Shown: one piece after another, positions 1 to 11,774 of the stretch
Numbering within the stretch: position 1 is the stretch's first letter
Layout: every line of letters starts with the position of its first letter
Virus record (IMG/VR): IMGVR_UViG_3300042691_008527
Location: 1 to 64,000 of that record
Source of the DNA: a virus
DNA: 64,000 nucleotides
Direction: 5' to 3' (one strand)
Program-made: the position numbers and the translations under genes
Notes under the pieces: generated by a model
Told to the model about the DNA's origin: nothing
The model's database searches: none
Seen by the model: the letters and a program-made list of their open reading frames with translations, nothing else

Positions 1-97
1 TACGGATAGGTGTGAAAGAGTTGATTCTTCCAGTTACTCCCACTTTGCTAGTAGTGAAGAGATCTCCTACTTGATAGGTATATCCTCCGAGAGTCAT
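1..97 (-). CDS. Small KOW/SH3-like protein, 3' part cut by window edge
   Basis: The N-terminal 32 residues are visible; the gene runs off the left edge of the window. The ATG at 97 follows an AGAAAGG Shine-Dalgarno sequence about 8 bases upstream. The visible part contains YQVGDLFTTSKVGVTGRIN, which matches YKVGDTYTSQKSKVTGVIK in the 54-aa protein at 698-862 and resembles VGDRIAMTKSSSLIKGGII in the protein at 4771-4998. A V-G-D start followed by a G-x-I turn is typical of small SH3/KOW beta-barrels. Function unknown. It is the leftmost visible member of the leftward early gene block. Confidence 0.7.
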   Translation of the reverse strand, partial: MTLGGYTYQVGDLFTTSKVGVTGRINSFTPIR

Positions 98-166
98 TTG
101 CTTTTCCTTTCTGTTAGTGTTTGGTGGGCAGTTTTACCTTAGGTGATGCCCAGCACCAAGTCTCAT

Positions 167-589
167 TTAGAGATAACGAGCAACTGCCTGATATGTAGAT
201 GTGGAGACTACTTCCTCATCGGTCATCTTGAGAATACGAATCGCATTAGAGATTTCCTCTTTTTGCTGGTCATATTCATAGCGACCAAGAGTTACGAAGT
301 CACGCTTTGGCTCATCAGGAATAGTGATAGTTCCTGCTGGTAGGTTGAAATCAACATTTATTGTGCCGTTCCAACGAGTATTGGCAGACAACTCTGTTGC
401 CTTTGCGATATGTGCTAGAGCCAACTTAGCAACTTCCTTGTTGTGCTTCTCTTGTGCCTTCTTGAACTTTGCCTCATTAGCCTCTTGAGTAGAGTAATCC
501 TTCTCAAGTTTTGCGAGGGCAGATTCAAGTGCCTTGATTACCTTAGTTGTTGCTATCTTTACTGAGATAGCCTTACCTCTGCTTGCCAT
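167..589 (-). CDS. Early hypothetical protein, helical N-terminus (140 aa)
   Basis: Not recognised as a named family. The N-terminal half is Lys/Glu/Ala-rich and strongly helical (a run with LESALAKLEKDY and FKKAQEKHNKEVAKL, likely coiled coil). The C-terminal half is beta-like, with DFNLPAGTITIP and a terminal segment ending QAVARYL. The frame is open to 619, but the start was set at ATG 589 because AGAAAGG lies 8 bases upstream; nothing comparable precedes the upstream ATG. A good promoter lies at 618-646. Probably an early cytoplasmic protein. Confidence 0.8.
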   Translation of the reverse strand: MASRGKAISVKIATTKVIKALESALAKLEKDYSTQEANEAKFKKAQEKHNKEVAKLALAHIAKATELSANTRWNGTINVDFNLPAGTITIPDEPKRDFVTLGRYEYDQQKEEISNAIRILKMTDEEVVSTSTYQAVARYL

Positions 590-617
590 TTGTTTCCCTT
601 TCTGTTTGGTGGTTTCC

Positions 618-646
618 ATCTTAGCATTTTGCTAAGTGAATATCAA
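618..646 (-). promoter_or_regulatory. Early promoter, TTGATA-N17-TAAGAT
   Basis: On the minus strand, TTGATA (641-646) and TAAGAT (618-623) are separated by 17 bases, with TGC just before the -10. This is a sigma70-like promoter for the 140-aa gene at 167-589. It belongs to the early promoter family also seen at 1897, 3921, 4142 and 4746. Confidence 0.7.
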
Positions 647-697
647 GTTGAGCAGTTTATCCTCCACTTGCTCAGGTGGCGTTAGCGTTTGCTAAAC

Positions 698-862
698 CTA
701 CTTTTGCTTCCAAGTAGTCCAACGAGTCTTACCCTCAACATCAAGACGAACACGAACTGTGCCGTTTGCCTGTGGGTTGATTTCCTTGATGACTCCTGTG
801 ACCTTGCTCTTTTGCGAGGTGTAGGTATCGCCTACCTTGTATAGTGCTGTGGCTACTGCCAT
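698..862 (-). CDS. KOW/SH3-like small protein (54 aa)
   Basis: Starts MAVATALYKVGDTYTS, ends WTTWKQK. Paralogue of the partial gene at 1-97 (shared V-G-D...S-K-V-T-G-x-I), and more distantly of 4771-4998. The ATG at 862 follows AAAGGAGAAAGAAA. A beta-rich pattern (VRVRLDVEGKTRW) suggests a single nucleic-acid-binding-type barrel. Binding to nucleic acid or to a host transcription or translation factor is inference from the fold type only. Confidence 0.75.
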   Translation of the reverse strand: MAVATALYKVGDTYTSQKSKVTGVIKEINPQANGTVRVRLDVEGKTRWTTWKQK

Positions 863-899
863 TTTCTTTCTCCTTTGTTTGTTTGTTGCTTACTGTATT

Positions 900-929
900 A
901 TTATCGCATTATTTACTTGTGTCCGTCAA
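900..929 (-). promoter_or_regulatory. Early promoter, TTGACG-N18-GATAAT
   Basis: TTGACG at 924-929 and GATAAT at 900-905 on the minus strand, 18 bases apart, about 40 bases upstream of the 54-aa gene that starts at 862. Confidence 0.6.
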
Positions 930-959
930 GTTATTTCTGATATTTCTCATATTTTGAGA

Positions 960-1028
960 TTATTTATCCCATAGACCTGCTAGCGTTAGGATTAGCAGAA
1001 CAAGGAATAAGATTATTATTATGCTCAC
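960..1028 (-). CDS. Putative 22-aa membrane peptide
   Basis: A GTG at 1028 preceded by AGGGGG at 5-base spacing opens MSIIIILFLVLLILTLAGLW plus DK and stop. It is essentially one transmembrane helix with a short charged tail. It lies immediately downstream of the GP88-like gene, so it would be translated from the same mRNA. Tiny membrane peptides of this kind occur in actinophages, but the ORF is very short and could be chance. A second small membrane protein (35 aa) lies at 3067-3174. Confidence 0.45.
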   Translation of the reverse strand: MSIIIILFLVLLILTLAGLWDK

Positions 1029-1037
1029 CCATGCCCC

Positions 1038-1751
1038 CTACTTTTTCTTAGCAGAGAACACTATATCAGATTTTTGGTATACGCACAAGCCACAAGAGAC
1101 ACAAGCAGATCCCTTCTCAGATATTAGCGGGATAGCCTTTTTATTCTCAGGACACTTTGCCCCTACCCTGCCAATCATGGCTTTCATGTCTGCCTGCCCA
1201 ATAGCGAATGTATCAGCAAGATAAGCTAATCTTACTTCTTTACTAGCTAGGGTAACGGCAATATCTTTATTATCTTGATCTGTTGAGAAATAGAGAGATA
1301 GGTTATCAATACCCTTGAGGATATTAGTTGCGGAGGGTACACGAGTATAAACCCAGAATCTAATATCAGGATTATCTAGAATCGTGTTCCTCCATGCCCA
1401 TGTATATGAATCATTGAAGAAGTCCCCGTCCCAGTGAATACGGAAGAGTTTTTCAGCATTGCGCTTATCACAATCTTTGCGGAAGTCTTCAATCATTTCT
1501 GACAATAGATCTTCCATAGTATCTTGATCTGCGTCTTTCAATAGATCCCAGTTATGGATTAGAACATTTCTAACACCCTTATAGATCTTTTCTAACTTAC
1601 CCGCATAGCAGACTTTGGCGCATGTAGGTGTTTGACCAGGGCATGAATATTCTTTCCCTGCGGGTAGTCCGAATGTATTAGCAATAGTAGGTGTCTTGCC
1701 ATTAGGTGAAACGGCATTAGTAACTTTTCTGTCCTTAGATCTAATAAGCAT
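1038..1751 (-). CDS. GP88-family Cys-rich protein
   Basis: Resembles the actinophage gene product 88 family. An N-terminal cluster CPGQTPTCAKVCYAGK has three closely spaced cysteines, a central RIHWDGDFFN block follows, and the C-terminus carries CVSCGLCVYQK. Cysteine sets at both ends suggest a bound metal or iron-sulfur cluster; the activity of the family is not established. The frame opens at ATG 1760, but GGAG sits only one base from that ATG and 10 bases from the ATG at 1751, so 1751 was chosen (237 aa). It overlaps the end of the 43-aa gene, which points to coupled translation. Confidence 0.8.
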   Translation of the reverse strand: MLIRSKDRKVTNAVSPNGKTPTIANTFGLPAGKEYSCPGQTPTCAKVCYAGKLEKIYKGVRNVLIHNWDLLKDADQDTMEDLLSEMIEDFRKDCDKRNAEKLFRIHWDGDFFNDSYTWAWRNTILDNPDIRFWVYTRVPSATNILKGIDNLSLYFSTDQDNKDIAVTLASKEVRLAYLADTFAIGQADMKAMIGRVGAKCPENKKAIPLISEKGSACVSCGLCVYQKSDIVFSAKKK

Positions 1752-1872
1752 AATAGTCATTCTCCATTTCTAGCCATACTGTTTCCTTGATTGATTGATC
1801 AGATCCGTATAGAGATCCATTACAATCATTCATTTCATGACCGCAACATGGAAAGTCTTCACAAGTATTCAT
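1741..1872 (-). CDS. CEDFPCCGHE small zinc-binding-type protein (43 aa)
   Basis: MNTCEDFPCCGHEMNDCNGS at the N-terminus carries four cysteines and a histidine in 13 residues, a signature I recognise from very small actinophage proteins. The pattern suggests a zinc knuckle; function unknown. Start ATG 1872 follows AGAAAGGG. A promoter lies at 1897-1925, so this is the first gene of the operon that continues with the GP88-like gene. Confidence 0.8.
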   Translation of the reverse strand: MNTCEDFPCCGHEMNDCNGSLYGSDQSIKETVWLEMENDYYAY

Positions 1873-1896
1873 TTTATTCCCTTTCTGAATAATCCA

Positions 1897-1925
1897 AGTC
1901 TAGCATTTCAGGGAAAAAATATCAA
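1897..1925 (-). promoter_or_regulatory. Early promoter, TTGATA-N17-TAGACT
   Basis: TTGATA at 1920-1925 and TAGACT at 1897-1902 on the minus strand, exactly 17 bases apart, with TGC before the -10. Drives the 43-aa and GP88-like genes. Confidence 0.7.
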
Positions 1926-1935
1926 CTTAGCGTAA

Positions 1936-1985
1936 TAGGGTGTTTCTACGTAAATAGGGCAAAACGGACAGCGGCCGGGCCCCTT
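1936..1985. repeat. Intergenic regulatory module, copy A (partial)
   Basis: Contains CTACGTAAAT, then CAAAACGGACAGCG and CCGGGCCCC. These elements recur in the same order in modules C (4180-4300) and D (5062-5230), and in weaker form in B (2960-3062). No gene is seen here; it separates two leftward operons. Confidence 0.6.
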
Positions 1986-1993
1986 TCGGAGCT

Positions 1994-2221
1994 TTACTCT
2001 ACATAGACATAGAGTTCAATTTTTTCATCATCAAAGAAGAATGTATCAATAACTTCTTCATATTCATCAATAATGGCAACATTACATCCTTCTTCGCCTT
2101 CATTGATATTTTTGATAGTGAAGAACTCTCCATCAACTTTTATTAGATCGCCTTCCATAAGTTGATTTGGATAGAGTAAGTCAGCAAAGCGTATTTCCAT
2201 ATCCATCATTGTAGCAGTCAT
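1994..2221 (-). CDS. Acidic SH3-like small protein (75 aa)
   Basis: Very acidic, especially in the C-terminal half (EYEEVIDTFFFDDEKIEL). The segment MEGDLIKVDGEFFTIKNI has the G-D-x-I...G-x-F-x-x-I pattern of a small beta-barrel, as in elongation-factor or KOW-like folds. The start overlaps the previous stop by four bases (ATGA), so translation is probably coupled to 2218-2427. An alternative start is the ATG five codons in. Function unknown; acidic barrels could act as DNA mimics, but nothing here proves that. Confidence 0.75.
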   Translation of the reverse strand: MTATMMDMEIRFADLLYPNQLMEGDLIKVDGEFFTIKNINEGEEGCNVAIIDEYEEVIDTFFFDDEKIELYVYVE

Positions 2222-2427
2222 TTTATTACTACCTCGCCATTCGCATAGAAAGTTTTTGTGAACATTTTACCTGTTGGGTCAGTTAGATTATATCTAGCAT
2301 AGACCTTAGCATTTCCATAGTCCTTACACTTAGCCCAAGCGTCATGAGCCTCCATGAAGTCATGAAGTCGCAAGGTAGAAACGAGTTCATCGTCATACCA
2401 AGTTGTTAGTGCGTATGCGTATTCCAT
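2218..2427 (-). CDS. Early hypothetical protein (69 aa)
   Basis: Starts MEYAYALTTWYDDELVSTLR. The ATG at 2427 has GAGAGG about 9 bases upstream; the open frame extends to a TTG at 2448 with no such site. Predicted mixed alpha/beta; DPTGKMFTKTFYANGEVVIK at the end looks like a beta hairpin. Lies between the 99-aa and 75-aa genes with 1-base spacing upstream and a 4-base overlap downstream. Not recognised as a characterised family. Confidence 0.75.
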   Translation of the reverse strand: MEYAYALTTWYDDELVSTLRLHDFMEAHDAWAKCKDYGNAKVYARYNLTDPTGKMFTKTFYANGEVVIK

Positions 2428-2428
2428 T

Positions 2429-2728
2429 TTAGTATTCCTCTCTCTCAATAATCCAAGCGTCTAGGTGGTGTGCCTCAATAATAGCATGGGCAGGTGCCAT
2501 GTCCTCACCACGCCACGAAACACCCTCTGGTAACTTGATAGGCAAATCCCAAAGTCCTAAGTCATTTACTGCGTCAATAGCCTGAATACATGGCTGAATC
2601 ATAGTGCTAGGAACGGGAGGGTAGTGATTAGATGAGAGATGAATCCCTATCTGTTGCTCAATGCTTAGCATGATACCCATATCTTCTAAGACTCCGCTTG
2701 CCATTTCATTTGCCATATTGCTTCCCAT
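2429..2728 (-). CDS. Conserved actinophage hypothetical protein (99 aa)
   Basis: The core IGIHLSSNHYPPVPSTM, then a PCIQAIDAVND helix, LPEGVSWRG and a terminal AHAIIEAHHLDAWI are features I recognise from a small family widespread in actinobacteriophages; its function is unknown. Start ATG 2728 follows AAGGGG at 7 bases. Second gene of the operon that begins at 2904. Confidence 0.8.
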   Translation of the reverse strand: MGSNMANEMASGVLEDMGIMLSIEQQIGIHLSSNHYPPVPSTMIQPCIQAIDAVNDLGLWDLPIKLPEGVSWRGEDMAPAHAIIEAHHLDAWIIEREEY

Positions 2729-2739
2729 TTTATTTCCCC

Positions 2740-2904
2740 TTATCGTGCTTCTGGTGTAGTGAATAGTTCGCCTACTAAGTATAGGCTATGTTGGTTATAC
2801 TTCTCAAGTCCTGCCTCACAATGGCAATACTCAAAGTCAAACTCCTCGCCAAGGGCAAAGTATATCTCTCCGCTATCATAGCAAAGAAAGCAGTTAGTTT
2901 TCAT
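2740..2904 (-). CDS. Small CxxC zinc-ribbon-like protein (54 aa)
   Basis: MKTNCFLCYDSGEIYFALG with a later CHC gives four cysteine/histidine ligands (C5, C8 and the CHC), a plausible single zinc site. Start ATG 2904 is supported by AAAGGAAATGAA; the frame stays open upstream but without a ribosome site. First gene after the promoter at 2931-2959. Function unknown. Confidence 0.75.
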   Translation of the reverse strand: MKTNCFLCYDSGEIYFALGEEFDFEYCHCEAGLEKYNQHSLYLVGELFTTPEAR

Positions 2905-2930
2905 TTCATTTCCTTTCTTCCAATACGATA

Positions 2931-2959
2931 AACTTATCACAACCCTCCGACAACCTCAA
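2931..2959 (-). promoter_or_regulatory. Early promoter, TTGAGG-N17-TAAGTT
   Basis: TTGAGG at 2954-2959 and TAAGTT at 2931-2936 on the minus strand with a 17-base spacer containing TGTCGGAGGG, a block also present in the promoter regions at 4746 and 5033. Drives the genes from 2904 leftward. Confidence 0.6.
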
Positions 2960-3035
2960 ACCGACACGCCGAGTTCTGCAAAAAATTTCTGGGTCGCCGT
3001 AAAGTGTAACGTAAATCATATTGTGGATAACCTGT
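2960..3035. repeat. Intergenic regulatory module, copy B (diverged)
   Basis: Contains GACACGCCG, TTCTGCAAAAAATTTCTG and TGTAACGTAAATCATA. The last is a two-mismatch version of the TGTGA-N6-TCACA palindrome found in modules C and D. No coding capacity seen. Confidence 0.5.
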
Positions 3036-3062
3036 GGAAAACGCCCCGGCGCCCTCGGGCGT
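3036..3062 (-). terminator. Hairpin terminator after the leftward operon 3893-3067
   Basis: ACGCCC at 3041-3046 pairs with GGGCGT at 3057-3062 around a GC-rich loop; on the minus strand it is followed by TTTTCC. It lies four bases past the stop of the 35-aa gene. Confidence 0.55.
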
Positions 3063-3066
3063 GTTG

Positions 3067-3174
3067 CTATTTCTTTTTTATTTCTCTTTCTGCGATTGAG
3101 ATCTCTAGCAAAGTTACCAAACTATAAGCAAGAATAAAAATCGTTGCCAAAGTTGCGAAGTCACTTATTCCCAT
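3067..3174 (-). CDS. Small membrane protein (35 aa)
   Basis: MGISDFATLATIFILAYSLV plus TLLEISIAEREIKKK: one transmembrane helix (about residues 6-25) and a Lys-rich C-terminus, likely cytoplasmic. The start codon overlaps the previous stop (TAATG), so it is probably translated by coupling with 3174-3362. Last gene of its operon, ahead of the hairpin at 3036-3062. A role at the host membrane is possible but unproven. Confidence 0.65.
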   Translation of the reverse strand: MGISDFATLATIFILAYSLVTLLEISIAEREIKKK

Positions 3175-3362
3175 TATGCTAAAACCTTTCCTAGTTCATC
3201 AACACCGCAGGCTTTTTCAAACCTTGCTTTATCAAAGTTTTCATTATCACTCTGAAACCAATCAGCAAATAAATCTACCATATCCTCAAACACTCTCGCA
3301 GGAATTTCATCAGCGAAAGAGTTGAGAATGTTGGCGGTCTTTATGTAGTCCTTGCGAGTCAT
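3174..3362 (-). CDS. Conserved actinophage hypothetical protein (62 aa)
   Basis: MTRKDYIKTANILNSFADEI, then a second amphipathic helix and DKARFEKACGV near the end, matches a small all-helical family I recognise from many actinophage early regions (MTRKDYI...IPEDVF...F..ACGV). Function unknown. The start overlaps the upstream stop (TAATGA). Sits in a five-gene chain of one-base overlaps or very short gaps. Confidence 0.8.
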   Translation of the reverse strand: MTRKDYIKTANILNSFADEIPARVFEDMVDLFADWFQSDNENFDKARFEKACGVDELGKVLA

Positions 3363-3613
3363 TAGTTATTTTCTCCTAAGTCTATGAATGCTTCACTACC
3401 ATTTTCATTGATACGCTCTAACTCTGAGATAAGTTGCTCACGAGTTAGTTTTGAAACATTTCCTAGAATACTTCTAAGGCATTCCTTATTCATAGCGATA
3501 AACATTTCCTGAGGAATGCTAGAGATTTGAATTCCCATCGGTGAATCTGGGTTATAGCGTGAGACGAAGTTGATACCATCAACCTCAAACGGAACAGTTA
3601 CGAAGTTAGACAT
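3362..3613 (-). CDS. Early hypothetical protein (83 aa)
   Basis: Beta-rich N-terminus (FVTVPFEVDGINFVSRYN), a short helix with MFIAMNKECLRSI, and a C-terminal helix LTREQLISELERINENG. Start ATG 3613 has GAAAGGAAAACTA upstream, and the start overlaps the stop of 3613-3726. Not recognised. Confidence 0.75.
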   Translation of the reverse strand: MSNFVTVPFEVDGINFVSRYNPDSPMGIQISSIPQEMFIAMNKECLRSILGNVSKLTREQLISELERINENGSEAFIDLGENN

Positions 3614-3726
3614 TAGTTTTCCTTTCTTGTTGTATTATTCATTGTAGCGGTTAGCACCGACAAGGCTTGCGCTTGGCTTTCCTTGCGTTGCTGGATTACA
3701 TGCTGGCGGAATTCTTCTAGATTCAT
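3613..3726 (-). CDS. Small helical protein (37 aa)
   Basis: MNLEEFRQHVIQQRKESQAQ begins a single amphipathic helix; a similar short protein occurs next to the MTRKDYI family in other actinophages as I recall. Start ATG 3726 has GGAGG at 7 bases. It overlaps the next gene by one base (TAATG). Function unknown. Confidence 0.65.
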   Translation of the reverse strand: MNLEEFRQHVIQQRKESQAQALSVLTATMNNTTRKEN

Positions 3727-3728
3727 TT

Positions 3729-3893
3729 CTAGTCCTCCTCTATTTCTGTAACTTTGATTAGGTGAATGCCAAAGGCAGGATTACTTAGCGCATCAAGACG
3801 CCTTAGCATATTCTCGTAGTTTTCTTCATAGGATAGAAACTCGTCAAAGTCTCCTTCGATATGAAACTCAGCGGTTAGTGTATAAGTAGGCAT
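3729..3893 (-). CDS. Early hypothetical protein (54 aa)
   Basis: MPTYTLTAEFHIEGDFDEFL followed by a helix and a beta strand ending IHLIKVTEIEED. The acidic beta-alpha-beta layout suggests a compact single domain. Start ATG 3893 follows AAAGGGGCAAAA. First gene of the operon driven by the promoter at 3921-3949. Not recognised. Confidence 0.7.
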   Translation of the reverse strand: MPTYTLTAEFHIEGDFDEFLSYEENYENMLRRLDALSNPAFGIHLIKVTEIEED

Positions 3894-3920
3894 TTTTGCC
3901 CCTTTCTTTTTGTTGAGATA

Positions 3921-3949
3921 ATCTTATCGTATTCAGTTATTTATAGCAA
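3921..3949 (-). promoter_or_regulatory. Early promoter, TTGCTA-N17-TAAGAT
   Basis: TTGCTA at 3944-3949 and TAAGAT at 3921-3926 on the minus strand, 17 bases apart. It drives the operon 3893 to 3067. A CRP-type palindrome lies exactly 10 bases upstream of the -35 box. Confidence 0.7.
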
Positions 3950-3951
3950 GC

Positions 3952-4110
3952 CTAAGCGTTGTGAGGTTGGTCACATGGACACTTAGGATTAGTCTTAGCA
4001 AAGTAGCGAATCAACATCATTCGCTCATTAGTAGTTAGTCCAAATACTGAGCGGATACCGCCGTCATTGTATTCATGGATTAGCTTTATTACTTTTTCAT
4101 CAGTGAGCAT
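3952..4110 (-). CDS. Early hypothetical protein (52 aa)
   Basis: Two helices, then a Cys-containing tail KCPCDQPHN (two cysteines and a histidine, possibly a weak metal site). Start ATG 4110 follows GAAAGGGGCAAAA. The tail codons carry the palindrome at 3960-3975, so this gene's 3' end doubles as control sequence for the next operon. Not recognised. Confidence 0.7.
   Translation of the reverse strand: MLTDEKVIKLIHEYNDGGIRSVFGLTTNERMMLIRYFAKTNPKCPCDQPHNA
3960..3975. promoter_or_regulatory. CRP-type operator TGTGA-N6-TCACA
   Basis: TGTGAGGTTGGTCACA, an exact match to the consensus of CRP/GlxR-type regulators. It is 10 bases upstream of the -35 of the promoter at 3921-3949; its centre would lie near -53. 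Confidence 0.6.
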
Positions 4111-4141
4111 TTTTGCCCCTTTCTTATTTTCTTACTCTGTA

Positions 4142-4170
4142 AGTTTATCACTTTGGTCTGACAATATCAA
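4142..4170 (-). promoter_or_regulatory. Early promoter, TTGATA-N17-TAAACT
   Basis: TTGATA at 4165-4170 and TAAACT at 4142-4147 on the minus strand, 17 bases apart. Drives the 52-aa gene at 3952-4110. A CRP-type palindrome lies 41 bases upstream of the -35 box. Confidence 0.7.
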
Positions 4171-4179
4171 CTTAGAAAT

Positions 4180-4300
4180 GCGGATAAATCGGACAATCTG
4201 CAAAATATTTTTGTGAGTCGTATCACATCGTACGTAAATGGTACAAAACGGACATAGGGCCCGGCATTTTTCGGCGCATTGTCAAATCAACACGCCGATT
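4180..4300. repeat. Intergenic regulatory module, copy C
   Basis: In order: AAATCGGACAATCTGCAAAA, the palindrome at 4212-4227, TACGTAAAT, CAAAACGGACATA, GGGCCCGGC and ACACGCCG. Module D at 5062-5230 has the same elements in the same order. No gene is seen between 4111 and 4313. Confidence 0.65.
4212..4227. promoter_or_regulatory. CRP-type operator TGTGA-N6-TCACA
   Basis: TGTGAGTCGTATCACA, an exact palindromic match. It is 41 bases upstream of the -35 box at 4165-4170, three helical turns further out than the sites at 3960, 4785 and 5289. Confidence 0.6.
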
Positions 4301-4313
4301 TTTTATTTATTTT

Positions 4314-4502
4314 TTATGGATATTTCTTTTCATCTTCATCAACTAGAAACGAGATGTATTCAGAGAATCCAATATCATACGCAATCGGATCAACTGCTTT
4401 CAGAACATCAGACGGGGAATAAAGAAGATTCCCAATCACTATCTGCTCATTCGTTTCATCTAACATCTGGTCATACAGCGGAAGAAGTAAATCTTCATTC
4501 AT
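4314..4502 (-). CDS. Acidic early hypothetical protein (62 aa)
   Basis: MNEDLLLPLYDQMLDETNEQ then a second half ending FLVDEDEKKYP. Strongly acidic and mostly helical. Start ATG 4502 has GGAGG at 7 bases and overlaps the upstream stop (ATGA), so translation is coupled to 4499-4651. Not recognised. Confidence 0.75.
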   Translation of the reverse strand: MNEDLLLPLYDQMLDETNEQIVIGNLLYSPSDVLKAVDPIAYDIGFSEYISFLVDEDEKKYP

Positions 4503-4651
4503 CGCTTTACCTCCATTACTGAATAACTAGCCTTAGGGTCTAGTTGCTTTACAATATCCATGAACTCATTTAGTTCTTTTACACTTGCGAATGTCTCCTT
4601 AGCAATAGCCTTAGAGATAAGTCCGTCAAATACGATGACCTTGATTTCCAT
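4499..4651 (-). CDS. Early hypothetical protein (50 aa)
   Basis: MEIKVIVFDGLISKAIAKET followed by an amphipathic helix KELNEFMDIVKQL and ASYSVMEVKR. A beta-alpha-beta arrangement is likely. ATG 4651 has AAGGAAAACTGAA upstream. Overlaps the next gene by four bases. Not recognised. Confidence 0.7.
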   Translation of the reverse strand: MEIKVIVFDGLISKAIAKETFASVKELNEFMDIVKQLDPKASYSVMEVKR

Positions 4652-4670
4652 TTCAGTTTTCCTTTCTTAG

Positions 4671-4712
4671 TTGAGAGTTATTACTTAGGACATTAGGCGA
4701 GAACACTCTCAA
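4671..4712 (-). promoter_or_regulatory. Leader hairpin in the 5' UTR of 4651
   Basis: TTGAGAGT (4671-4678) and ACTCTCAA (4705-4712) are perfect 8-base inverted repeats around a 26-base loop, inside the roughly 88-nt leader between the promoter at 4746 and the start at 4651. It could tune mRNA stability or act as a protein site. Confidence 0.45.
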
Positions 4713-4745
4713 ACTGCCTCTGTTTCCTTATTTAGTTATGAGATA

Positions 4746-4774
4746 AGCCTAGCACTACCCACCGACAATATCAA
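4746..4774 (-). promoter_or_regulatory. Early promoter, TTGATA-N17-TAGGCT
   Basis: TTGATA at 4769-4774 and TAGGCT at 4746-4751 on the minus strand with 17 bases between them and TGC before the -10. The spacer starts TTGTCGGTGGG, shared with other members of the family. A near-perfect CRP-type palindrome lies 10 bases upstream. Confidence 0.7.
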
Positions 4775-4998
4775 GCGGTAGGGATGTGATTTCTATCACG
4801 ATAGATTTCATAGTCATTAGGACTCCACCTAGTGATATGAAACACACCGCCATTTGATGTCTTGATGGTCTTGGCGTATTGATTCACGCCCTTGATTTCG
4901 GTGATGATTCCACCCTTGATTAGTGATGAAGATTTGGTCATTGCGATTCTATCGCCAACTCTCATCATGTTGTATTTACTTAGGGTTACAGTTGCCAT
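4771..4998 (-). CDS. KOW/SH3-like small protein (75 aa)
   Basis: Third member of the family at 1-97 and 698-862: MRVGDRIAMTKSSSLIKGGI, then IKTSNGGVFHITRW, a beta-barrel-like pattern. The start was set at ATG 4998, ten bases after AAGGA; the GTG three codons upstream is too close to that site. Transcribed from 5033-5061. Its last codons contain the operator at 4785-4800. Function unknown. Confidence 0.75.
   Translation of the reverse strand: MATVTLSKYNMMRVGDRIAMTKSSSLIKGGIITEIKGVNQYAKTIKTSNGGVFHITRWSPNDYEIYRDRNHIPTA
4785..4800. promoter_or_regulatory. CRP-type operator, one mismatch (TGTGA-N6-TCACG)
   Basis: TGTGATTTCTATCACG, within the 3' end of the 75-aa gene and exactly 10 bases upstream of the -35 box at 4769-4774, the same offset as the sites at 3960 and 5289. 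Confidence 0.5.
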
Positions 4999-5032
4999 GT
5001 TTGGCACTTCCTTTCTTTCTGCTTACTCCGTA

Positions 5033-5061
5033 AGTCTAACACACACCTCCGACATTACCTA
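5033..5061 (-). promoter_or_regulatory. Early promoter, weak -35, -10 TAGACT
   Basis: TAGACT at 5033-5038 with TAGGTA at 5056-5061 (17-base spacing; poor -35) on the minus strand. The spacer contains ATGTCGGAGG, as in the other early promoters. Drives 4771-4998. A poor -35 with a CRP-type palindrome upstream would fit an activator-dependent promoter. Confidence 0.55.
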
Positions 5062-5288
5062 ATCAGAAATGCATACAAAATGGACATTTTGCAAACTATT
5101 TTTTGTGAGTATAATCACATCATACATAAACGGACAAATCGGACATCGGCCCGGCGCCTATGGACAAATCGGACATTTCGGACTGTGGCAAAGATCACAT
5201 GCGACACGCCGTGTTTGAGTTTGCTTTTTTTCTGAGGGTGTGGGATACTTGCTGCCATGAACGGACAACAGGAAGGTAGTAGTTACGG
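5062..5288. promoter_or_regulatory. Divergent control region, module D with CGGACA iterations
   Basis: This is the core of the 374-base stretch without a convincing gene between 4998 and 5373. It holds the operator at 5104-5119, a one-mismatch site TGTGGCAAAGATCACA at 5184-5199, CGGACA at 5131, 5140, 5170 and 5262, and a duplicated 15-mer GGACAAATCGGACAT at 5132 and 5162. It also has GGCCCGGCGCC and ACACGCCGTGT. The iterated repeats between divergent operons suggest a regulatory hub or replication-related element. Confidence 0.6.
5104..5119. promoter_or_regulatory. CRP-type operator TGTGA-N6-TCACA
   Basis: TGTGAGTATAATCACA, exact. It lies 42 bases upstream of the -35 box at 5056-5061, matching the spacing seen in module C. 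Confidence 0.6.
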
Positions 5289-5304
5289 TGTGAGGCATAT
5301 CACA
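5289..5304. promoter_or_regulatory. CRP-type operator TGTGA-N6-TCACA
   Basis: TGTGAGGCATATCACA, exact, and extended by a flanking G and C to GGTGTGA...TCACACC. It lies 10 bases upstream of the rightward -35 box at 5315-5320. Confidence 0.6.
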
Positions 5305-5314
5305 CCACGATAAC

Positions 5315-5344
5315 TTGACCAGCAAAAAGAGGGTGTGCTAAGAT
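5315..5344 (+). promoter_or_regulatory. Rightward early promoter, TTGACC-N18-TAAGAT
   Basis: TTGACC at 5315-5320 and TAAGAT at 5339-5344 with an 18-base spacer and TGTGC before the -10. Drives the operon 5373-5888. Confidence 0.7.
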
Positions 5345-5372
5345 TCACCCATTGAAAGAAAGGAGTCATCAA

Positions 5373-5600
5373 ATGTATGACTACGCAGAAGAAATCAGAA
5401 GCGATGTTCGCTATTATCATGGTGAGCGATTCGCACCAAAGAATCCACCTAAGGATTACAAGAAAGAAATCGCAGAGGCTATCGCAGTAACAGATGCGAT
5501 GACGCAAGATGAGAGAAATGCGATTCGCTATCTCTCAGAGAATAACAGAGAAGAGTTACACGCTCTCTATGTGCGAGTGAAAGAAAGGGCAGGTCTATAA
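5373..5600 (+). CDS. Early hypothetical protein (75 aa)
   Basis: MYDYAEEIRSDVRYYHGERF at the N-terminus, a Lys-rich middle, then two helices with TQDERNAIRYLSENNREEL. Start ATG 5373 has AAAGGAG at 7-base spacing; the open frame reaches a TTG at 5352 that lacks a site. All-helical and charged; could bind DNA or protein. Not recognised. First gene of the only rightward early operon. Confidence 0.75.
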   Translation: MYDYAEEIRSDVRYYHGERFAPKNPPKDYKKEIAEAIAVTDAMTQDERNAIRYLSENNREELHALYVRVKERAGL

Positions 5601-5601
5601 C

Positions 5602-5709
5602 ATGGCTAAGTGCTCAATGTGTGGGGGTAGTGGTAGAATCTATTACTACCTAGCAGGAGAACATGAAGTCACACCTTGTGACCATGTAGCAGAAAGGAAA
5701 ACAAAGTGA
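5602..5709 (+). CDS. CxxCxGSG zinc-finger-like small protein (35 aa)
   Basis: MAKCSMCGGSGRIYYYLAGE then HEVTPCDHVAERKTK. CSMCGGSG is a DnaJ-type zinc-finger half; C26 and H28 may complete the site. Similar tiny proteins occur in actinophage early regions. The start lies one base after the upstream stop. Confidence 0.7.
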   Translation: MAKCSMCGGSGRIYYYLAGEHEVTPCDHVAERKTK

Positions 5710-5888
5710 GACTACGGATTACTAACATGGCAGGCGATACGCACGACATGGAAATGAAATCAAAAGAAGAGGTTAGTTATTTTATTGAGATGTATCGCAA
5801 GAACCTGCGAAGAAATCAAAGAGTAAAAGTTACTTGCGATATTCTAGGTATTGACGGATACTTACAAGGAACGCTAACTAATCGCTAG
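5706..5888 (+). CDS. Early hypothetical protein (60 aa), GTG start
   Basis: GTG at 5706 overlaps the previous stop (GTGA) and has AGAAAGGAAAACAAA upstream, so GTG rather than the internal ATG is the likely start. MRLRITNMAGDTHDMEMKSK, a helix EVSYFIEMYRKNL, and a beta-rich end (VKVTCDILGIDGYLQGTL). Followed directly by the terminator at 5897. Not recognised. Confidence 0.7.
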   Translation: MRLRITNMAGDTHDMEMKSKEEVSYFIEMYRKNLRRNQRVKVTCDILGIDGYLQGTLTNR

Positions 5889-5896
5889 ATAAATAA

Positions 5897-5940
5897 AGTG
5901 AGCACATCTCAGACAGTGTGCTCACTATTTTTTTTATTTT
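5897..5940 (+). terminator. Strong intrinsic terminator of the rightward early operon
   Basis: AGTGAGCACA (5897-5906) and TGTGCTCACT (5917-5926) form a perfect 10-base stem with a 10-base loop, followed by a long T-rich tract. Confidence 0.9.
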
Positions 5941-6025
5941 ATTTTTTTCAAAACATGCATCATACATCTTAGAAAAATATTCAGATTTTGGTAAAACCAA
6001 AAAATAAAAATTTTTTCAGATTTCA

Positions 6026-6412
6026 CTAAAGTGGAAGATGTCCGCTTTGCTCAAGGACAAACCCATTAGCCCTATCGAACAGCTCATAATCAAGCTCTAC
6101 AATATTAAAAGCCTTTGCGAACTCTTCAAAAACAATCGGTACATCTAAAGCACCACATGTATAAAGATCGAACTGAACTAACGAAGGATCTCCCTCATCC
6201 CAAATATGAAATGCAATGTGGCTAGTCTCAATCATGACAATAGCCGTAAGACCACGATTTCCTTCTTTGTCGACATAGCTAGCAAATGGACCCTTAATAA
6301 TCTTCATATCAATTTTCTCAACTAGGCGGGTAAGGAAATCAATAGCCTCTTCCTCTGATCGCATAGGATTATGCACCTTAGCATTAACAAGCAGGTGTTT
6401 GTGAAATAACAT
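6026..6412 (-). CDS. speD: SpeD-like pyruvoyl decarboxylase (AdoMet decarboxylase family), 128 aa
   Basis: Family resemblance to class 1b S-adenosylmethionine decarboxylase, a self-cleaving pyruvoyl enzyme that makes decarboxylated AdoMet for spermidine. IETSHIAFHIW (61-71) aligns with the ESH..IH cleavage segment: S64 would become the pyruvoyl group, H69 matches the processing histidine, and C86 in DLYTCG the catalytic cysteine. Unlike typical members, the residue before the serine is Thr63 rather than Glu, and two extra residues lie between S64 and C86. Some SpeD relatives decarboxylate ornithine or arginine instead, so the substrate is open. ATG 6412 follows AGAGGAGAGAT. Single-gene leftward unit. 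Confidence 0.85.
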   Translation of the reverse strand: MLFHKHLLVNAKVHNPMRSEEEAIDFLTRLVEKIDMKIIKGPFASYVDKEGNRGLTAIVMIETSHIAFHIWDEGDPSLVQFDLYTCGALDVPIVFEEFAKAFNIVELDYELFDRANGFVLEQSGHLPL

Positions 6413-6438
6413 ATCTCTCCTCTGTTTGACGAATTACC

Positions 6439-6467
6439 ATTATAGCGTATATGATAGAATAAAACAA
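6439..6467 (-). promoter_or_regulatory. Promoter for the SpeD-like gene, TTGTTT-N17-TATAAT
   Basis: TTGTTT at 6462-6467 and TATAAT at 6439-6444 on the minus strand with a 17-base spacer. The -35 overlaps the first base of the divergent FkbM gene, so the two promoters physically overlap. Confidence 0.7.
6453..6460 (+). promoter_or_regulatory. Extended -10 promoter for the FkbM gene (predicted leaderless)
   Basis: TGATAGAAT (TGN plus TAGAAT, hexamer 6455-6460) is followed by six bases and then ATG 6467, so transcription would begin at or next to the start codon. No Shine-Dalgarno sequence is present. Confidence 0.55.
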
Positions 6468-7111
6468 TGTTTGTCCATGCAGAGTTTGCTAATAAATATT
6501 ATAAAATTTTAAATAGAATAAAGCCAGACGTTGCTATTGAAATTGGAGCATATGATGGAGAATTTTCTCAATATATGGCAACCGTTATTGATCCTAAAAA
6601 TGTTTGGGCATTTGAAGCAAATCCAGATACTTACAACAAATACAAAGATTCTTTATATCATATAAATTATATAAATATAGCTATATCTGACAAACAAGAA
6701 GAAACTGCTTTATATATAGTAGATACTGAAGAAATATGGGCTCCTGGAGCGGTAAGTATTAAAAATAGAAATGATGGACAACAAGAAAAAATAATATCTT
6801 TAATACAAACAAACACATTGGATAGTTTTGTAAAAGAAAATAATATCTCAGGAAATATATCATTATGGGTAGATGTCGAAGGTGCAAATAAAGAAGTTTT
6901 ATTAGGATCTATTGAAACACTAAAAAATGTAACATCAATATATATCGAAGTAGAAACATATGAATTTTGGAAGAACATATGGTTTAAAGATGATGTTTTA
7001 AACTTTTTGCAAGGATATAATTTTACTGCAATAGATCAGTCTACTGACTGGAAGCAGCATGATGTAATTTTTATTAGAAATGACTATTTAGAAATGGCAG
7101 GGTATAAATGA
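6467..7111 (+). CDS. FkbM-family SAM-dependent methyltransferase (214 aa)
   Basis: Probable O-methyltransferase acting on sugars or small molecules. IEIGAYDGEFS (24-34) is the SAM-binding motif I, FEANP (49-53) the second SAM-contact region, TLDSF (117-121) and LWVDVEGANKEVL (133-145) the FkbM signature. Length is normal for the family. The ATG lies six bases after a TGATAGAAT box, so the mRNA is probably leaderless. Its stop overlaps the start of the glycosyltransferase gene (ATGA), implying joint expression. The pair is unusually AT-rich and may have been acquired. Targets could be virion glycans, host wall glycans or modified DNA; the sequence does not decide. Confidence 0.85.
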   Translation: MFVHAEFANKYYKILNRIKPDVAIEIGAYDGEFSQYMATVIDPKNVWAFEANPDTYNKYKDSLYHINYINIAISDKQEETALYIVDTEEIWAPGAVSIKNRNDGQQEKIISLIQTNTLDSFVKENNISGNISLWVDVEGANKEVLLGSIETLKNVTSIYIEVETYEFWKNIWFKDDVLNFLQGYNFTAIDQSTDWKQHDVIFIRNDYLEMAGYK

Positions 7112-7839
7112 TCTCAAAGTTAGAGGGCATGCCAAAAATAGTTTACATAAACATATATTCACAATATAAAAGACGTGAACATATGGAGTCTATGTTTGCA
7201 AAGTATCAGATAGATGACTATCAACACTTTAATGCTATAACTCCATCAAAATCTCATCATCAATATTTAAACAAGGGGGAGTTTGGATGCATGCTTTCCC
7301 ACTTGATGATCATATCTGACTTTTATAAAAATAGCCCAGATGATATGTTGATCGTAATGGAAGATGATGTTGATATTTCTAGCATAGATAATTGGGATTT
7401 TTCTTGGCGGGAATTCATAGAGGCAATGCCTAACTTTGAAATATTACAACTTATTAGAAACCAAGAACACCAACAATACGCCAAACTCAAACAATGGCAT
7501 TGGAGAGATAAATCAACAGCTGGATATCTAATCACAAAAGACTATGCTAAAAAAATATATGATATGTACATGTATTCTCAAAAAAATTTGTCGGGGTTTC
7601 CAAATCTCCATGACGATCCTGAATTTCCATGGACACACAAAGTAGGCCCAGTAGCCGATTATGCTCTATATAAAAACTTTAACTCTTGGTCAATAGGTAT
7701 TTTTACTTACCTATTAAATACTGAAATAGGCTGGAGTTCTACATCTCCTGATAAAGAACCACCCAATTGGCTTGTCAAATATAACACTGAAATAAACGAA
7801 TATTGGTCAAAGCCACATAGCCTCAAAGATATTTTATAA
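7108..7839 (+). CDS. Glycosyltransferase family 25-like protein (243 aa)
   Basis: GT25 (LPS-biosynthesis type) features: N-terminal PKIVYINIYSQYKRREHM, GEFGCMLSHLMII (58-70) and the metal/nucleotide-sugar site IVMEDDVDIS (82-91). Such enzymes transfer galactose, glucose or similar sugars to glycans or proteins. Overlaps the FkbM gene by four bases; with it forms a two-gene glycan-modifying cassette. The appendage genes start about 0.9 kb downstream, so decoration of virion proteins is attractive but unproven. AT-rich like its partner. Ends against the convergent zinc-binding gene with no terminator between them. Confidence 0.8.
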   Translation: MISKLEGMPKIVYINIYSQYKRREHMESMFAKYQIDDYQHFNAITPSKSHHQYLNKGEFGCMLSHLMIISDFYKNSPDDMLIVMEDDVDISSIDNWDFSWREFIEAMPNFEILQLIRNQEHQQYAKLKQWHWRDKSTAGYLITKDYAKKIYDMYMYSQKNLSGFPNLHDDPEFPWTHKVGPVADYALYKNFNSWSIGIFTYLLNTEIGWSSTSPDKEPPNWLVKYNTEINEYWSKPHSLKDIL

Positions 7840-8001
7840 TTACCATTTCCCAATAGGACAATGAGAGTTTTCTAGACGTGTTTTGATTTTCATAAAGCAC
7901 CCGCACTTTTTACAGACTTCTTTGCGTTTATTAAAAAATGGGCATTCACGACATATTTGCATACGCCTATCAAATTCTTCTTCAGATATTTCTTTGCCCA
8001 T
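7840..8001 (-). CDS. Small zinc-binding protein, CxxCP...CxxCGCFM type (53 aa), copy 1
   Basis: CRECPFFNKRKEVCKKCGCF followed by MKIKTRL and HCPIGKW near the C-terminus: six cysteines fit two zinc sites. Paralogue of 16174-16407. The ATG at 8001 was chosen over the upstream in-frame ATG at 8037 because TATAAT lies at 8009-8014, seven bases before it, predicting a leaderless mRNA. Similar short proteins accompany structural genes in many phages; function unknown. Confidence 0.75.
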   Translation of the reverse strand: MGKEISEEEFDRRMQICRECPFFNKRKEVCKKCGCFMKIKTRLENSHCPIGKW

Positions 8002-8008
8002 ATGTTTA

Positions 8009-8014
8009 ATTATA
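8009..8014 (-). promoter_or_regulatory. -10 box TATAAT, predicted leaderless transcript
   Basis: TATAAT on the minus strand, seven bases upstream of ATG 8001. No Shine-Dalgarno sequence in between. Confidence 0.55.
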
Positions 8015-8041
8015 GCGGATACTGAGAATACTAACAAATAC

Positions 8042-8079
8042 TAGACCATGTTTGTATGTTTCATACATGTATTGGTCTA
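8042..8079. promoter_or_regulatory. Large inverted repeat between divergent genes
   Basis: TAGACCATGTTTGTATG and CATACATGTATTGGTCTA form an imperfect hairpin around TTT. It sits between the divergent genes at 8001 (left) and 8150 (right). Without a T-tract on either strand it looks more like an operator or bidirectional RNA element than a terminator. Confidence 0.5.
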
Positions 8080-8133
8080 TGGGGTGTTTGGTGTTCTATT
8101 TAGCGCTTCGCTTTAAATTCCCGCATAAAAAAA

Positions 8134-8142
8134 TGCTATAAT
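8134..8142 (+). promoter_or_regulatory. Extended -10 promoter TGCTATAAT, leaderless
   Basis: Seven bases separate the box from ATG 8150; no -35 or Shine-Dalgarno sequence is evident. Confidence 0.65.
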
Positions 8143-8149
8143 ATTGCTT

Positions 8150-8446
8150 ATGTCCGTCAACGAATGGCTAGGCGTAATCATAAGTGTGATGTCAATCATA
8201 GGATCCTTTGTATTGGCCATACGTTGGCTTGTAAAGCACTATTTCGAGGAGATGCGGGCGGAACTTAAACCCAACTCGGGAAAGAGCCTTAAAGACCAAG
8301 TAAGCCGTTTAGAAGAACGTGTCAATGAAGCTGAATATCTTCGCCGAGACATGAATGAAAAAATTGACAAAATGTATTTGATTTTGATTGACTATATCGC
8401 TGGACAAAATTCTAAGAAACGATCTAAATCTAAATCTGAATTCTAG
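8150..8446 (+). CDS. Membrane-anchored coiled-coil protein (98 aa)
   Basis: MSVNEWLGVIISVMSIIGSF and onward forms one N-terminal transmembrane helix (about residues 6-28). A basic stretch, then LKDQVSRLEERVNEAEYLRR and DMNEKIDKMYLILIDYI make a coiled coil, and the tail is Lys/Ser-rich. The layout (short outer N-terminus, one helix, cytoplasmic coiled coil) would fit a holin-like or membrane-tethered accessory protein. It is not close to the endolysin, so a lysis role is only a guess. The leaderless promoter at 8134 fixes the start; a TTG two codons earlier is rejected. Confidence 0.7.
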   Translation: MSVNEWLGVIISVMSIIGSFVLAIRWLVKHYFEEMRAELKPNSGKSLKDQVSRLEERVNEAEYLRRDMNEKIDKMYLILIDYIAGQNSKKRSKSKSEF

Positions 8447-8699
8447 TATATACTATATATAAGATATATAGATATTATATATATTAGATATATCTTTTAT
8501 CTTTATATATTTAAATTATACACATTGATTTGATAGTTGTCAAGTTTTAATACCTTTTGAACTATAACGATTTGATAAACTTTTATATACTTGTACCTTT
8601 TGTCCTATTATGATATAATTTCTTAGTTGGCCCCTGAGTCTCTACCCCACCCCTCTGCAGCTCAGGGGCTGACCTTTATTATGGTATAATTTTCACATA
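8447..8699. promoter_or_regulatory. AT-rich spacer with hairpin and two extended -10 promoters
   Basis: No gene seen. After an almost pure A/T tract (8447-8520) come TGATATAAT at 8611-8619, then a hairpin GCCCCTGAG (8630-8638) / CTCAGGGGC (8661-8669), and a second promoter TGGTATAAT at 8682-8690, nine bases before ATG 8700. The first promoter would put the hairpin near the 5' end of its transcript, either as an attenuating/terminating element or as a short RNA. Confidence 0.5.
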
Positions 8700-9116
8700 A
8701 TGTCATGTGCAACATGCCCCCCAGATATTGAAAAAATTGGTGCTAATCCATCAAATATTCAGTGGTGCGTAGTTCGTGGCGATACCGCAACTTTAAGAAT
8801 TGACTTTGTTGAAGATGATGAGGTTACTTATTTAGATACTTCGACTTGGTCCTATGATGCTACAGCATATGATCCATCTACAGATATTTCTTTTACTTTG
8901 ACTACAGAAGATGAACCAGGATATGTTTTAATTACCGCTCCAGCTAGTATGACTGAAGACTGGGGAAATATATATTCTTCAGTTGTAGCAGAACTTATTT
9001 TTGATTTACAGGTAACAATACCATCTGACCTTATTGGAGGTCTAGATACAATTTGGACCCCAGTTATTGGTACAATATCAGTACTAGGTGATGTTACTCT
9101 AGGAGGAAGTTTATGA
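8700..9116 (+). CDS. Virion appendage protein with BppU-like N-terminal motif (138 aa)
   Basis: Begins MSCATCPPDIEKIGANPSNI. The segment VVRGDTATLRIDF (24-36) is like the R-G-D-T/S motif at the start of phage baseplate/upper-fibre adaptor domains; a similar segment YYRGDTFQFIVRP occurs in the protein at 12659-13003. The remainder is beta-rich. Likely an adaptor that links a fibre to the tail or baseplate. Predicted nearly leaderless from TGGTATAAT (8682-8690). Overlaps the collagen-like gene by four bases. Confidence 0.65.
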   Translation: MSCATCPPDIEKIGANPSNIQWCVVRGDTATLRIDFVEDDEVTYLDTSTWSYDATAYDPSTDISFTLTTEDEPGYVLITAPASMTEDWGNIYSSVVAELIFDLQVTIPSDLIGGLDTIWTPVIGTISVLGDVTLGGSL

Positions 9117-9958
9117 CAGTTATAAAAGTTGTTCCAATGCCAGGAGTTGAGGGTCCACAGGGACCAGTAGGTGCAACAGGTGCCACTGGTGCTACAGGTC
9201 CACAAGGAGCAACAGGGGCTACGGGTACAGCTGCCACAATAAGCGTTGGGTCTGTTACAACTGGAGCGCCTGGATCTTCTGCAACAGTAACAAATGTTGG
9301 AACATCTAGTGCTGCAGTATTTAATTTTTCAATACCACAAGGAGATACTGGCGCAACAGGTGCAACTGGAGCAACAGGTGCAACTGGCCCTGCTCCCTGG
9401 ACTTTAATTGGTGCATACGATAATGGATATAGTTATAACATTGGTGATGCAGTAACTTATCAAGGTGGATTTTATTATAGAACTGGTAATCCATTGAACC
9501 CAGGATATCCACCAACACCAGGCTCTATAAACGCATCATGGACTCCAGTTGCAGATAGGGGAGAGCAGGGAATACAAGGAATACAGGGAATACAGGGAAA
9601 TACTGGTCCACAAGGTGCAACTGGGAATGTTTTTGCATATACAATTAATTCACAAACTGGAGTATCATATACCGCACAATCTGGTGATGAGCAAGCAATT
9701 ATTAGAATGAATAACGGTTCTCCAAATGTTGTTTATATACCAACAAATACAACTTGGCCAGTAGCAATAGGATCATCTATAACTGTAGTTAGAACTGGTT
9801 CAGGATCTACTAAAATTCAAGCAACAACTCCAGGAACTACAACTATTGTTTCTACTGGTGCTACCGCTGCACAACCAGCAGCTAGGGCTCAGTACTCTTT
9901 TATGACAGCTGTAAAAGTTGAAAGCGATGTTTGGTACGTTACTGGAGACATTTCTTAA
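9113..9958 (+). CDS. Collagen-like tail fibre protein (281 aa)
   Basis: Gly-X-Y repeats near residues 9-40 (PQGPVGATGATGATGPQGAT), again around 82-98 and 147-168 (QGIQGIQGIQG), separated by compact beta domains; one contains YNIGDAVTYQGGFYY, resembling a small carbohydrate-binding domain. Collagen-like segments form trimeric rods in phage fibres. Start has GGAGGAAGTTT upstream and overlaps the preceding stop. The C-terminal part (about 175-281) is a beta-rich tip domain. A surface appendage is likely. Confidence 0.85.
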   Translation: MTVIKVVPMPGVEGPQGPVGATGATGATGPQGATGATGTAATISVGSVTTGAPGSSATVTNVGTSSAAVFNFSIPQGDTGATGATGATGATGPAPWTLIGAYDNGYSYNIGDAVTYQGGFYYRTGNPLNPGYPPTPGSINASWTPVADRGEQGIQGIQGIQGNTGPQGATGNVFAYTINSQTGVSYTAQSGDEQAIIRMNNGSPNVVYIPTNTTWPVAIGSSITVVRTGSGSTKIQATTPGTTTIVSTGATAAQPAARAQYSFMTAVKVESDVWYVTGDIS

Positions 9959-10872
9959 TGCAATCAATTATAGGAATTAACTCTGCATCATTTAGAGTTC
10001 CACCTAAACCAATAGTTACAGGTGGAACTTTATATTCTGATTCTACATATTATTATAGAAAGTTTACTTCTTCAGGAACTTTAACAGTATCAGAAGTGCC
10101 ATTATCACCAATAGATATTATTCTAATTGGAGGTGGTGGTGGAAGCTCCTCTGGTGGTGGAGGTGGTGGTGGAATTTATGATCCAGTAGCACTTGATTCC
10201 TATACTATTACTGTACCAATAGGATCTACAACTGTAACTATTGGTGCTGGAGGAGCTGTTCAGTCAAAGGGTGGAGATACTTCCTGCCCAGTGTTAAGAA
10301 ATGGTGGACTTCCATTACCTAATCCAGCTTATGGTGGTGGTCAAGGTGGTCTAAGGCTTGGCCCAAGACCATCTTCAACTAATATTGGAGGTGGAGGTGG
10401 CGGAGGTAATGGGTATCTTGGTGGTTTTAGAGGTTATGGTCAAGGAGCTAGTGGAGCTTTTGGAGCAAGTGATTATGCCTATGGTGGTGGTGGCGGCGGA
10501 GGATGGCTTTGTGCACAAGATGGTGGAACAACAACCACTGTAGATGGATATAATGTTCAAGGATCAAAAGGTGGTGATGGATGTAATGCATATGCAACTT
10601 GGGCATCTGTAACATCTTCTGGAGCAGATGGTGGATATTTTGCTGGAGGTGGATCTGGTGGAAATGCTGATTATAATTTATTTAAAGCTCTTGCTGGAGG
10701 ACTAGGTGGTGGTGGCGGTGCATCAAGTGGTAGAGGGAACTATTCTCAAGCTGGAATAGCTAATACTGGCGGTGGTGGCGGAGGAATTATATCTTGGCTA
10801 AATGGAGGTACTGGACAACCTGGTGGATCAGGAATTGTAATTATTAGATATCTTAAATCATTAGTTGACTAA
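9958..10872 (+). CDS. Glycine-rich appendage protein (304 aa)
   Basis: A short N-terminal domain (YYYRKFTSSGTLTVSEVPLS), then ILIGGGGGSS and a long poly-glycine-rich region ending SGIVIIRYLK. The Y/F-x-F-T-S-S-G-T opening and V-I-I-R-Y close are hallmarks of the glycine-rich fibre domain found in many aquatic phages. Five more copies of this domain occur in the window. The start overlaps the upstream stop (TAATG). The glycine-rich sheet is thought to form a sandwich of polyglycine helices; receptor binding is inferred. Confidence 0.8.
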   Translation: MQSIIGINSASFRVPPKPIVTGGTLYSDSTYYYRKFTSSGTLTVSEVPLSPIDIILIGGGGGSSSGGGGGGGIYDPVALDSYTITVPIGSTTVTIGAGGAVQSKGGDTSCPVLRNGGLPLPNPAYGGGQGGLRLGPRPSSTNIGGGGGGGNGYLGGFRGYGQGASGAFGASDYAYGGGGGGGWLCAQDGGTTTTVDGYNVQGSKGGDGCNAYATWASVTSSGADGGYFAGGGSGGNADYNLFKALAGGLGGGGGASSGRGNYSQAGIANTGGGGGGIISWLNGGTGQPGGSGIVIIRYLKSLVD

Positions 10873-10877
10873 TAATA

Positions 10878-10886
10878 TGTTATAAT
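10878..10886 (+). promoter_or_regulatory. Extended -10 promoter TGTTATAAT, leaderless
   Basis: Six bases from ATG 10893; no Shine-Dalgarno sequence. Confidence 0.65.
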
Positions 10887-10892
10887 AAGTTT

Positions 10893-11162
10893 ATGGCCAG
10901 TACAAAAACAGTTACAATTACATCTACAGCACCAGTAATCCTTACTCCAGCAGCAGTTCATTCTGGCGTTGATATTACTATACAAAATCAAGGTAGTGCA
11001 GATATCTATGTTGGCACATCGTCAGTTACAAGTACAAGTTACGGAGTTAAACTTGCTAGCGGCTCTGGACTTGGACTTACTGTTCCAGCAAGAGATGAAG
11101 TTTATGCAATTACAGCATCTGGAACAGCTACTGTAACAGTCTTGACGATGGGGCTACCATAA
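10893..11162 (+). CDS. Small beta-rich virion protein (89 aa)
   Basis: Thr/Ser/Val-rich: MASTKTVTITSTAPVILTPA, then VDITIQNQGSADIYVG and VYAITASGTATVTVL. The pattern resembles small Ig-like or jelly-roll decoration proteins. It lacks cysteines and charged clusters. Lies in the appendage cluster, one base before the next gene. Exact position on the virion unknown. Confidence 0.65.
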   Translation: MASTKTVTITSTAPVILTPAAVHSGVDITIQNQGSADIYVGTSSVTSTSYGVKLASGSGLGLTVPARDEVYAITASGTATVTVLTMGLP

Positions 11163-11163
11163 A

Positions 11164-11766: not shown

Positions 11767-11774
11767 GAGATTAT

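Follow-up and report, generated by a model that had tools for sequence, protein, structure and literature searches.

Which protein reads the palindromes that are repeated among the small genes of this viral record, and what does it do to those genes? The window analyzed here is the 64,000 nucleotides from positions 1 to 64,000 of IMGVR_UViG_3300042691_008527, part of a viral record of 73,887 bp. We found the TGTGA-N6-TCACA palindromes where the initial annotation had placed them: four exact copies, all inside 1.4 kb, and two with a single mismatch (Table 1). The full 73,887-bp record has just one more site within one mismatch of the palindrome, at 8185. The distances from the sites to the -35 hexamers were also as claimed, at 10, 41, or 42 bp. 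No phased promoter was found near the site at 5184. A separate site and predicted promoter accompany every small leftward gene or gene pair between 3729 and 5007, as well as the rightward operon at 5352-5888. The genes downstream of the sites are probably early genes. Elsewhere in the window, the open reading frame list contains a row of tail-like proteins that are rich in glycine and resemble one another (20483-26511). A class II ribonucleotide reductase, weakly matching a barrel domain, is encoded at 26960-28990, and two genes at 6467-7839 appear by eye to be FkbM-type methyltransferase-like and glycosyltransferase-like.

Table 1. Palindromes, predicted promoters, and associated elements, in window coordinates.
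Feature	Position	Strand	Details
Exact CRP-type palindrome TGTGAGGTTGGTCACA	3960..3975		10 bp between its end and the -35 of a leftward promoter
Exact palindrome TGTGAGTCGTATCACA	4212..4227		leftward -35 41 bp downstream
One-mismatch palindrome TGTGATTTCTATCACG	4785..4800		within 3' end of gene 5007-4771; leftward -35 at 10 bp
Exact palindrome TGTGAGTATAATCACA	5104..5119		leftward -35-like hexamer 42 bp downstream
One-mismatch palindrome TGTGGCAAAGATCACA	5184..5199		
Exact palindrome TGTGAGGCATATCACA	5289..5304		rightward -35 at 10 bp
Predicted promoter	3921..3949	-	-35 TTGCTA, 17 bp, -10 TAAGAT; for gene 3893-3729
Predicted promoter	4142..4170	-	-35 TTGATA, TGTCAG box 4163-4158, extended -10 TGATAAACT; for gene 4110-3952
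Predicted promoter	4746..4774	-	-35 TTGATA, TGTCGG box, extended -10 TGCTAGGCT; for genes 4651-4499, 4502-4314
Predicted promoter	5033..5061	-	weak -35 TAGGTA, TGTCGG box 5054-5049, extended -10 TGTTAGACT; for gene 5007-4771
Predicted promoter	5315..5344	+	-35 TTGACC, 18 bp, extended -10 TGCTAAGAT; for genes 5352-5600, 5706-5888
TGTC[AG]G-N7-TGnTAnnnT	4163-4142, 4767-4746, 5054-5033	-	
TGTCCG box	4195-4190	-	32 bp upstream of TGTCAG box 4163-4158
Terminator-like hairpin and T-run	5897..5926	+	end of rightward operon 5352-5888

With the Gp88-like protein encoded at 1038-1760 as the query, we gathered 80 related IMG/VR loci (1.0 Mb). The claim that the sites exceed chance held in this set: there are 337 exact TGTGA-N6-TCACA sites across 77 of the 80 loci, with none in the other three, whereas control palindromes, which had other spacers or reversed letters, occur 0 to 5 times. 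Across 420 kb of phage DNA, we counted 23 copies of GTGA-Nk-TCAC at k = 6, and 0 to 3 copies at each of the remaining spacers with k between 0 and 15. The sites are grouped in one block per phage genome, and the genes downstream of them, Gp88 among them, encode mostly short proteins without assigned function from many unrelated families. No exact site is present in the 49.9 kb of Streptomyces phage Wakanda that we scanned, and megablast of positions 1-20000 of the window against named phages gave no match.

We located orthologous sites through separate searches with the flanks alone, with no requirement that the palindrome be exact. Identity is 99% in the half-sites, compared with 64% in N6 and 83% in the aligned flanks. 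The exact palindrome is kept in 106 of 112 orthologous sites, and N6 is altered in 76 of these 106. In loci L001-L003, the ortholog of site 3960 is TGTGAGGTTTATCACA, with an altered N6, and that of site 4212 is TGTGAGAAAACTCACA; sites 5104 and 5289 are unchanged in L003. Thus, both half-sites are under strong purifying selection, and the difference in identity between the half-sites and the N6 and flanks points to selection on the two half-sites of a dimeric protein. The GlxR and CRP consensus sequences are the same motif (PMC7999487, PMC4117774). The phage sites match it with its exact half-site spacing and, like CRP/GlxR operators, have constrained half-sites and a free spacer. They do not resemble operators or stoperators of a phage repressor, as they lie in one block and upstream of the -35.

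The initial annotation had predicted that, in related phages, the gaps between sites and -35 boxes would concentrate at 10 and 41-42 bp. We observed clusters at 10, 21, 31, and 41 bp. The same clusters appear when the first T of the predicted -10 is used, which lies 33, 43-44, 54, or 64-65 bp past the site, and the periodicity of these offsets is 10.5 bp. An in-phase promoter is present for 116 of 189 deduplicated sites, compared with 16 to 41 when the offsets are shifted by 3 to 7 bp. Many of the promoters are homologous, and therefore p-values that count single promoters overstate the phasing. Single-linkage DNA clustering of promoters, the harshest treatment, gave no significant phasing; it merged almost every promoter into a single chained cluster and left no power. 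We therefore grouped promoters by downstream-gene family instead (31 families, each with at least 2 members), and with one modal offset per family the phase holds (n = 30, p about 2e-4). By scanning the viral collection, we drew a second sample, used for the phase alone and not for site totals, from which the retrieving sites and anything resembling the first set were taken out. Among the matches listed, 100 disjoint sites replicated the phase (1.68 versus 1.64 of 10.5, p about 3e-7). In a minority class of promoters, with offsets of 49-50, the phase is off by half a turn, and the CRP site abuts a TGTCCG box. Taking the first T of the -10 as -12, we place the site centers at about -53.5, -64.5, -74.5, and -85 from the predicted start site. 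As is seen for CRP/GlxR operators, the sites are thus upstream of the predicted promoters at activating positions.

Does the phage encode the protein that binds these sites? Searches with PF00027 (cNMP-binding) and PF13545 (HTH_Crp) found no match in 48 phage records, which are possibly incomplete. Operators that recur in phage genomes, together with a regulator absent from these records, are what is found in a phage that uses a host regulator of the NtcA or PhoB type. The phages form a large uncultured freshwater group that probably infects Actinobacteria. WhiB, which is encoded in 16 of 27 phage records, is an actinobacterial protein and hence a sign of an actinophage. Judged by capsid and Gp88, the nearest named phages have Streptomyces and Mycobacterium as hosts, and a related phage contig lies inside an Actinomycetota MAG (G048). 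On the basis of this one 4.7-kb contig and WhiB, we presume that the host order is the order of that MAG. Genomes of the order are mostly 1.0-2.2 Mb, and it is likely Nanopelagicales, which are streamlined Actinobacteria (compare PMC10202952). Matches in MAGs (L083 and L082) had pointed to cyanobacteria or planctomycetes as hosts, a reading that we rejected. The match in the cyanobacterium-labeled MAG is a 110-kb actinophage-like contig with WhiB (G049:C31, L083), and it is probably misbinned because the only WhiB match in that MAG is on this contig itself.

The initial annotation had suggested looking for a CRP/GlxR homolog in candidate hosts, and the presumed order has one. A single CRP ortholog is present in 58 of its 61 genomes, and the recognition helix GASRETVNKALADF, found in 10 of the 10 CRPs that we read from the order, is that of M. 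tuberculosis CRP. In a full-length alignment, one of these proteins matched 3i54 and 3d0s, both structures from M. tuberculosis, with the same helix sequence.

The chromosomes of the presumed host order avoid the site. In G069, a complete genome, the count of GTGA-Nk-TCAC is 2 at k = 6, compared with an average of 19 at other k (P about 1e-6). Summed over 61 genomes of the order, there are 430 copies of GTGA-N6-TCAC and 1453 of the reversed control, with the count below the control in 61 of 61; for the exact ten-base form, the sum over 101 genomes is 15, against 38. Near-consensus sites in G069 are too few to test the site geometry on chromosomal promoters. This avoidance is consistent with a CRP at work in the cell and selection against its stray sites. 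Restriction is an alternative explanation for it, yet restriction leaves the enrichment in phages unexplained. In searches with working controls, we detected no class III adenylate cyclase (PF00211) in 61 genomes of the order and no class I (PF01295) or class IV/CYTH (PF01928) cyclase in 31. A cAMP-dependent regulon calls for an adenylate cyclase in the host, and with none found among classes I, III, and IV, the involvement of cAMP is doubtful. Either another class of cyclase exists or the CRP of the presumed order works without cAMP; this CRP may be constitutively active.

From these comparisons of sequence, we think it probable that the palindromes are operators of a host CRP/GlxR-type regulator and that host CRP activates small phage genes that are probably early. 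The phage would encode no CRP of its own and would rely on host protein already in the cell at infection. This protein would bind the perfect sites upstream of the promoters, always on the same side of the helix, and once bound would help RNA polymerase start transcription of the short genes in the early-looking block. It had been proposed that the early operons answer the host's cAMP/CRP-type regulator. The phasing, the lack of a CRP in the phage records searched, and the recognition helix in the presumed host order argue for the CRP half of this proposal, while the cAMP half is weakened, as no class I, III, or IV cyclase was found.

A second set of sequences is present in these promoters. 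Many of the CRP-site promoters contain TGTC[AG]G-N7-TGnTAnnnT. In phage loci L001-L080, the two parts occur 386 times at a gap of 7 and at most 13 times at any other gap, and there is 1 occurrence in G069. A TGTCCGnTTT box is found 271 times in the phage loci and 4 times in G069, and in many promoters the TGTCCG box precedes the TGTC[AG]G box by exactly 32 or 23 bp. Because a host genome has almost none of either box, there is probably at least one phage-linked regulator. A 180-amino-acid protein encoded at 57141-57683 (phrog_9440) is MerR-like by eye and is a candidate regulator. It has 72 to 77% identity to its counterparts in six larger relatives; in a seventh the match is distant (28%).

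These phage-specific boxes raise the question of whether TGTGA-N6-TCACA could itself be read by a phage-encoded DNA-binding protein that lacks the CRP fold. In favor of this, the boxes share promoters with the palindromes, and exact sites are below chance in the presumed host order. However, the motif equals the CRP/GlxR consensus, spacing included, none of the 48 phage records has a CRP-family gene, and the presumed hosts have a CRP with the matching recognition helix and avoid exactly the N6 spacing. We therefore regard a phage-encoded reader as unlikely. Binding by host CRP could also have the opposite outcome, with CRP repressing the phage genes as a silencer or a physiological brake, and M. 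tuberculosis CRP does repress when bound near the start site (PMC4117774). The positions of the phage sites argue against this, as they are phased upstream of the -35 at whole-turn spacings and not over the core promoter. Phages would also be expected to shed sites for a host repressor, but instead the half-sites are strongly conserved. Repression thus seems quite improbable.

It is very improbable that the palindromes are kept as a modification or restriction motif, as replication iterons, or as a structural element, with the promoter phasing secondary. The palindrome is bipartite, and avoidance in host genomes could stem from a restriction site; however, phages would avoid such sites rather than be enriched for them. 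The sites also adjoin promoters of many unrelated families with helical phasing, and they cluster near promoters with no tandem array. Returning to activation by host CRP, we tentatively suggest a fuller version. It is possible that streamlined freshwater Actinobacteria retain a CRP but no cyclase, that this CRP is cAMP independent and always on, that its consensus has been purged from the chromosome, and that the phages exploit it with helically phased perfect sites in composite promoters that also need a phage-linked reader of TGTC[AG]G near an extended -10.

If host CRP does activate these genes, expression in an abundant, mostly uncultured phage group would be tied to a global regulator of the host. 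The sites would provide a sequence signature for recognizing such phages, and a phased promoter architecture would be defined that is open to testing in vitro. The avoidance of sites in host genomes and the missing cyclases raise the question of what role CRP plays in streamlined freshwater Actinobacteria.

The CRP/GlxR regulons of M. tuberculosis and C. glutamicum share their operator consensus with the phages. M. tuberculosis genes whose expression falls in a crp mutant have sites at -44.5, -54.5, -57.5, -59.5, and -88.5 (PMC4117774), and the activating sites near -55 to -60 and at about -88 are like those of the phages, a provisional comparison because the phage start sites are predicted only. 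In C. glutamicum, perfecting a GlxR site raised expression (PMC7999487), which fits the use of perfect sites by the phages. These regulons differ in that they consist of chromosomal genes, whereas the genes here belong to phages, and in that cAMP control may be absent here, with no cyclase detected in the presumed host order. Class I CRP sites in E. coli center at -61.5, -71.5, or -82.5; the centers that we deduced from predicted starts are about 3 bp off these positions.

The use of a host CRP-family regulator by phages is already known from NtcA in cyanophages. T4-like marine cyanophages carry predicted NtcA sites (GTA-N8-TAC), 1 to 16 per genome with an average of 8.9, and this recurrence of a host CRP-family operator upstream of phage genes is the closest precedent (PMC3037559). 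The regulator, host phylum, and phages are different there, and the signal is nitrogen status; unlike that report, the present case has perfect palindromes, helical phasing, and purifying selection on half-sites. In the literature searched we found no description of CRP sites in actinophages, although this does not prove that there is none. Phage promoters also read a host regulator in the case of PhoB, whose binding to cyanophage genes was observed by gel shift (PMC10976474). PhoB, a two-component response regulator, controls selected genes that respond to stress, while the sites here serve a block of small genes without assigned function. Middle promoters of T4 consist of a MotA box and an extended -10. 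The TGTC[AG]G box lies just upstream of an extended -10, as the MotA box does, and this is no more than a resemblance: the box is different, no activator is assigned to it, and the phage promoters described here have a CRP site upstream.
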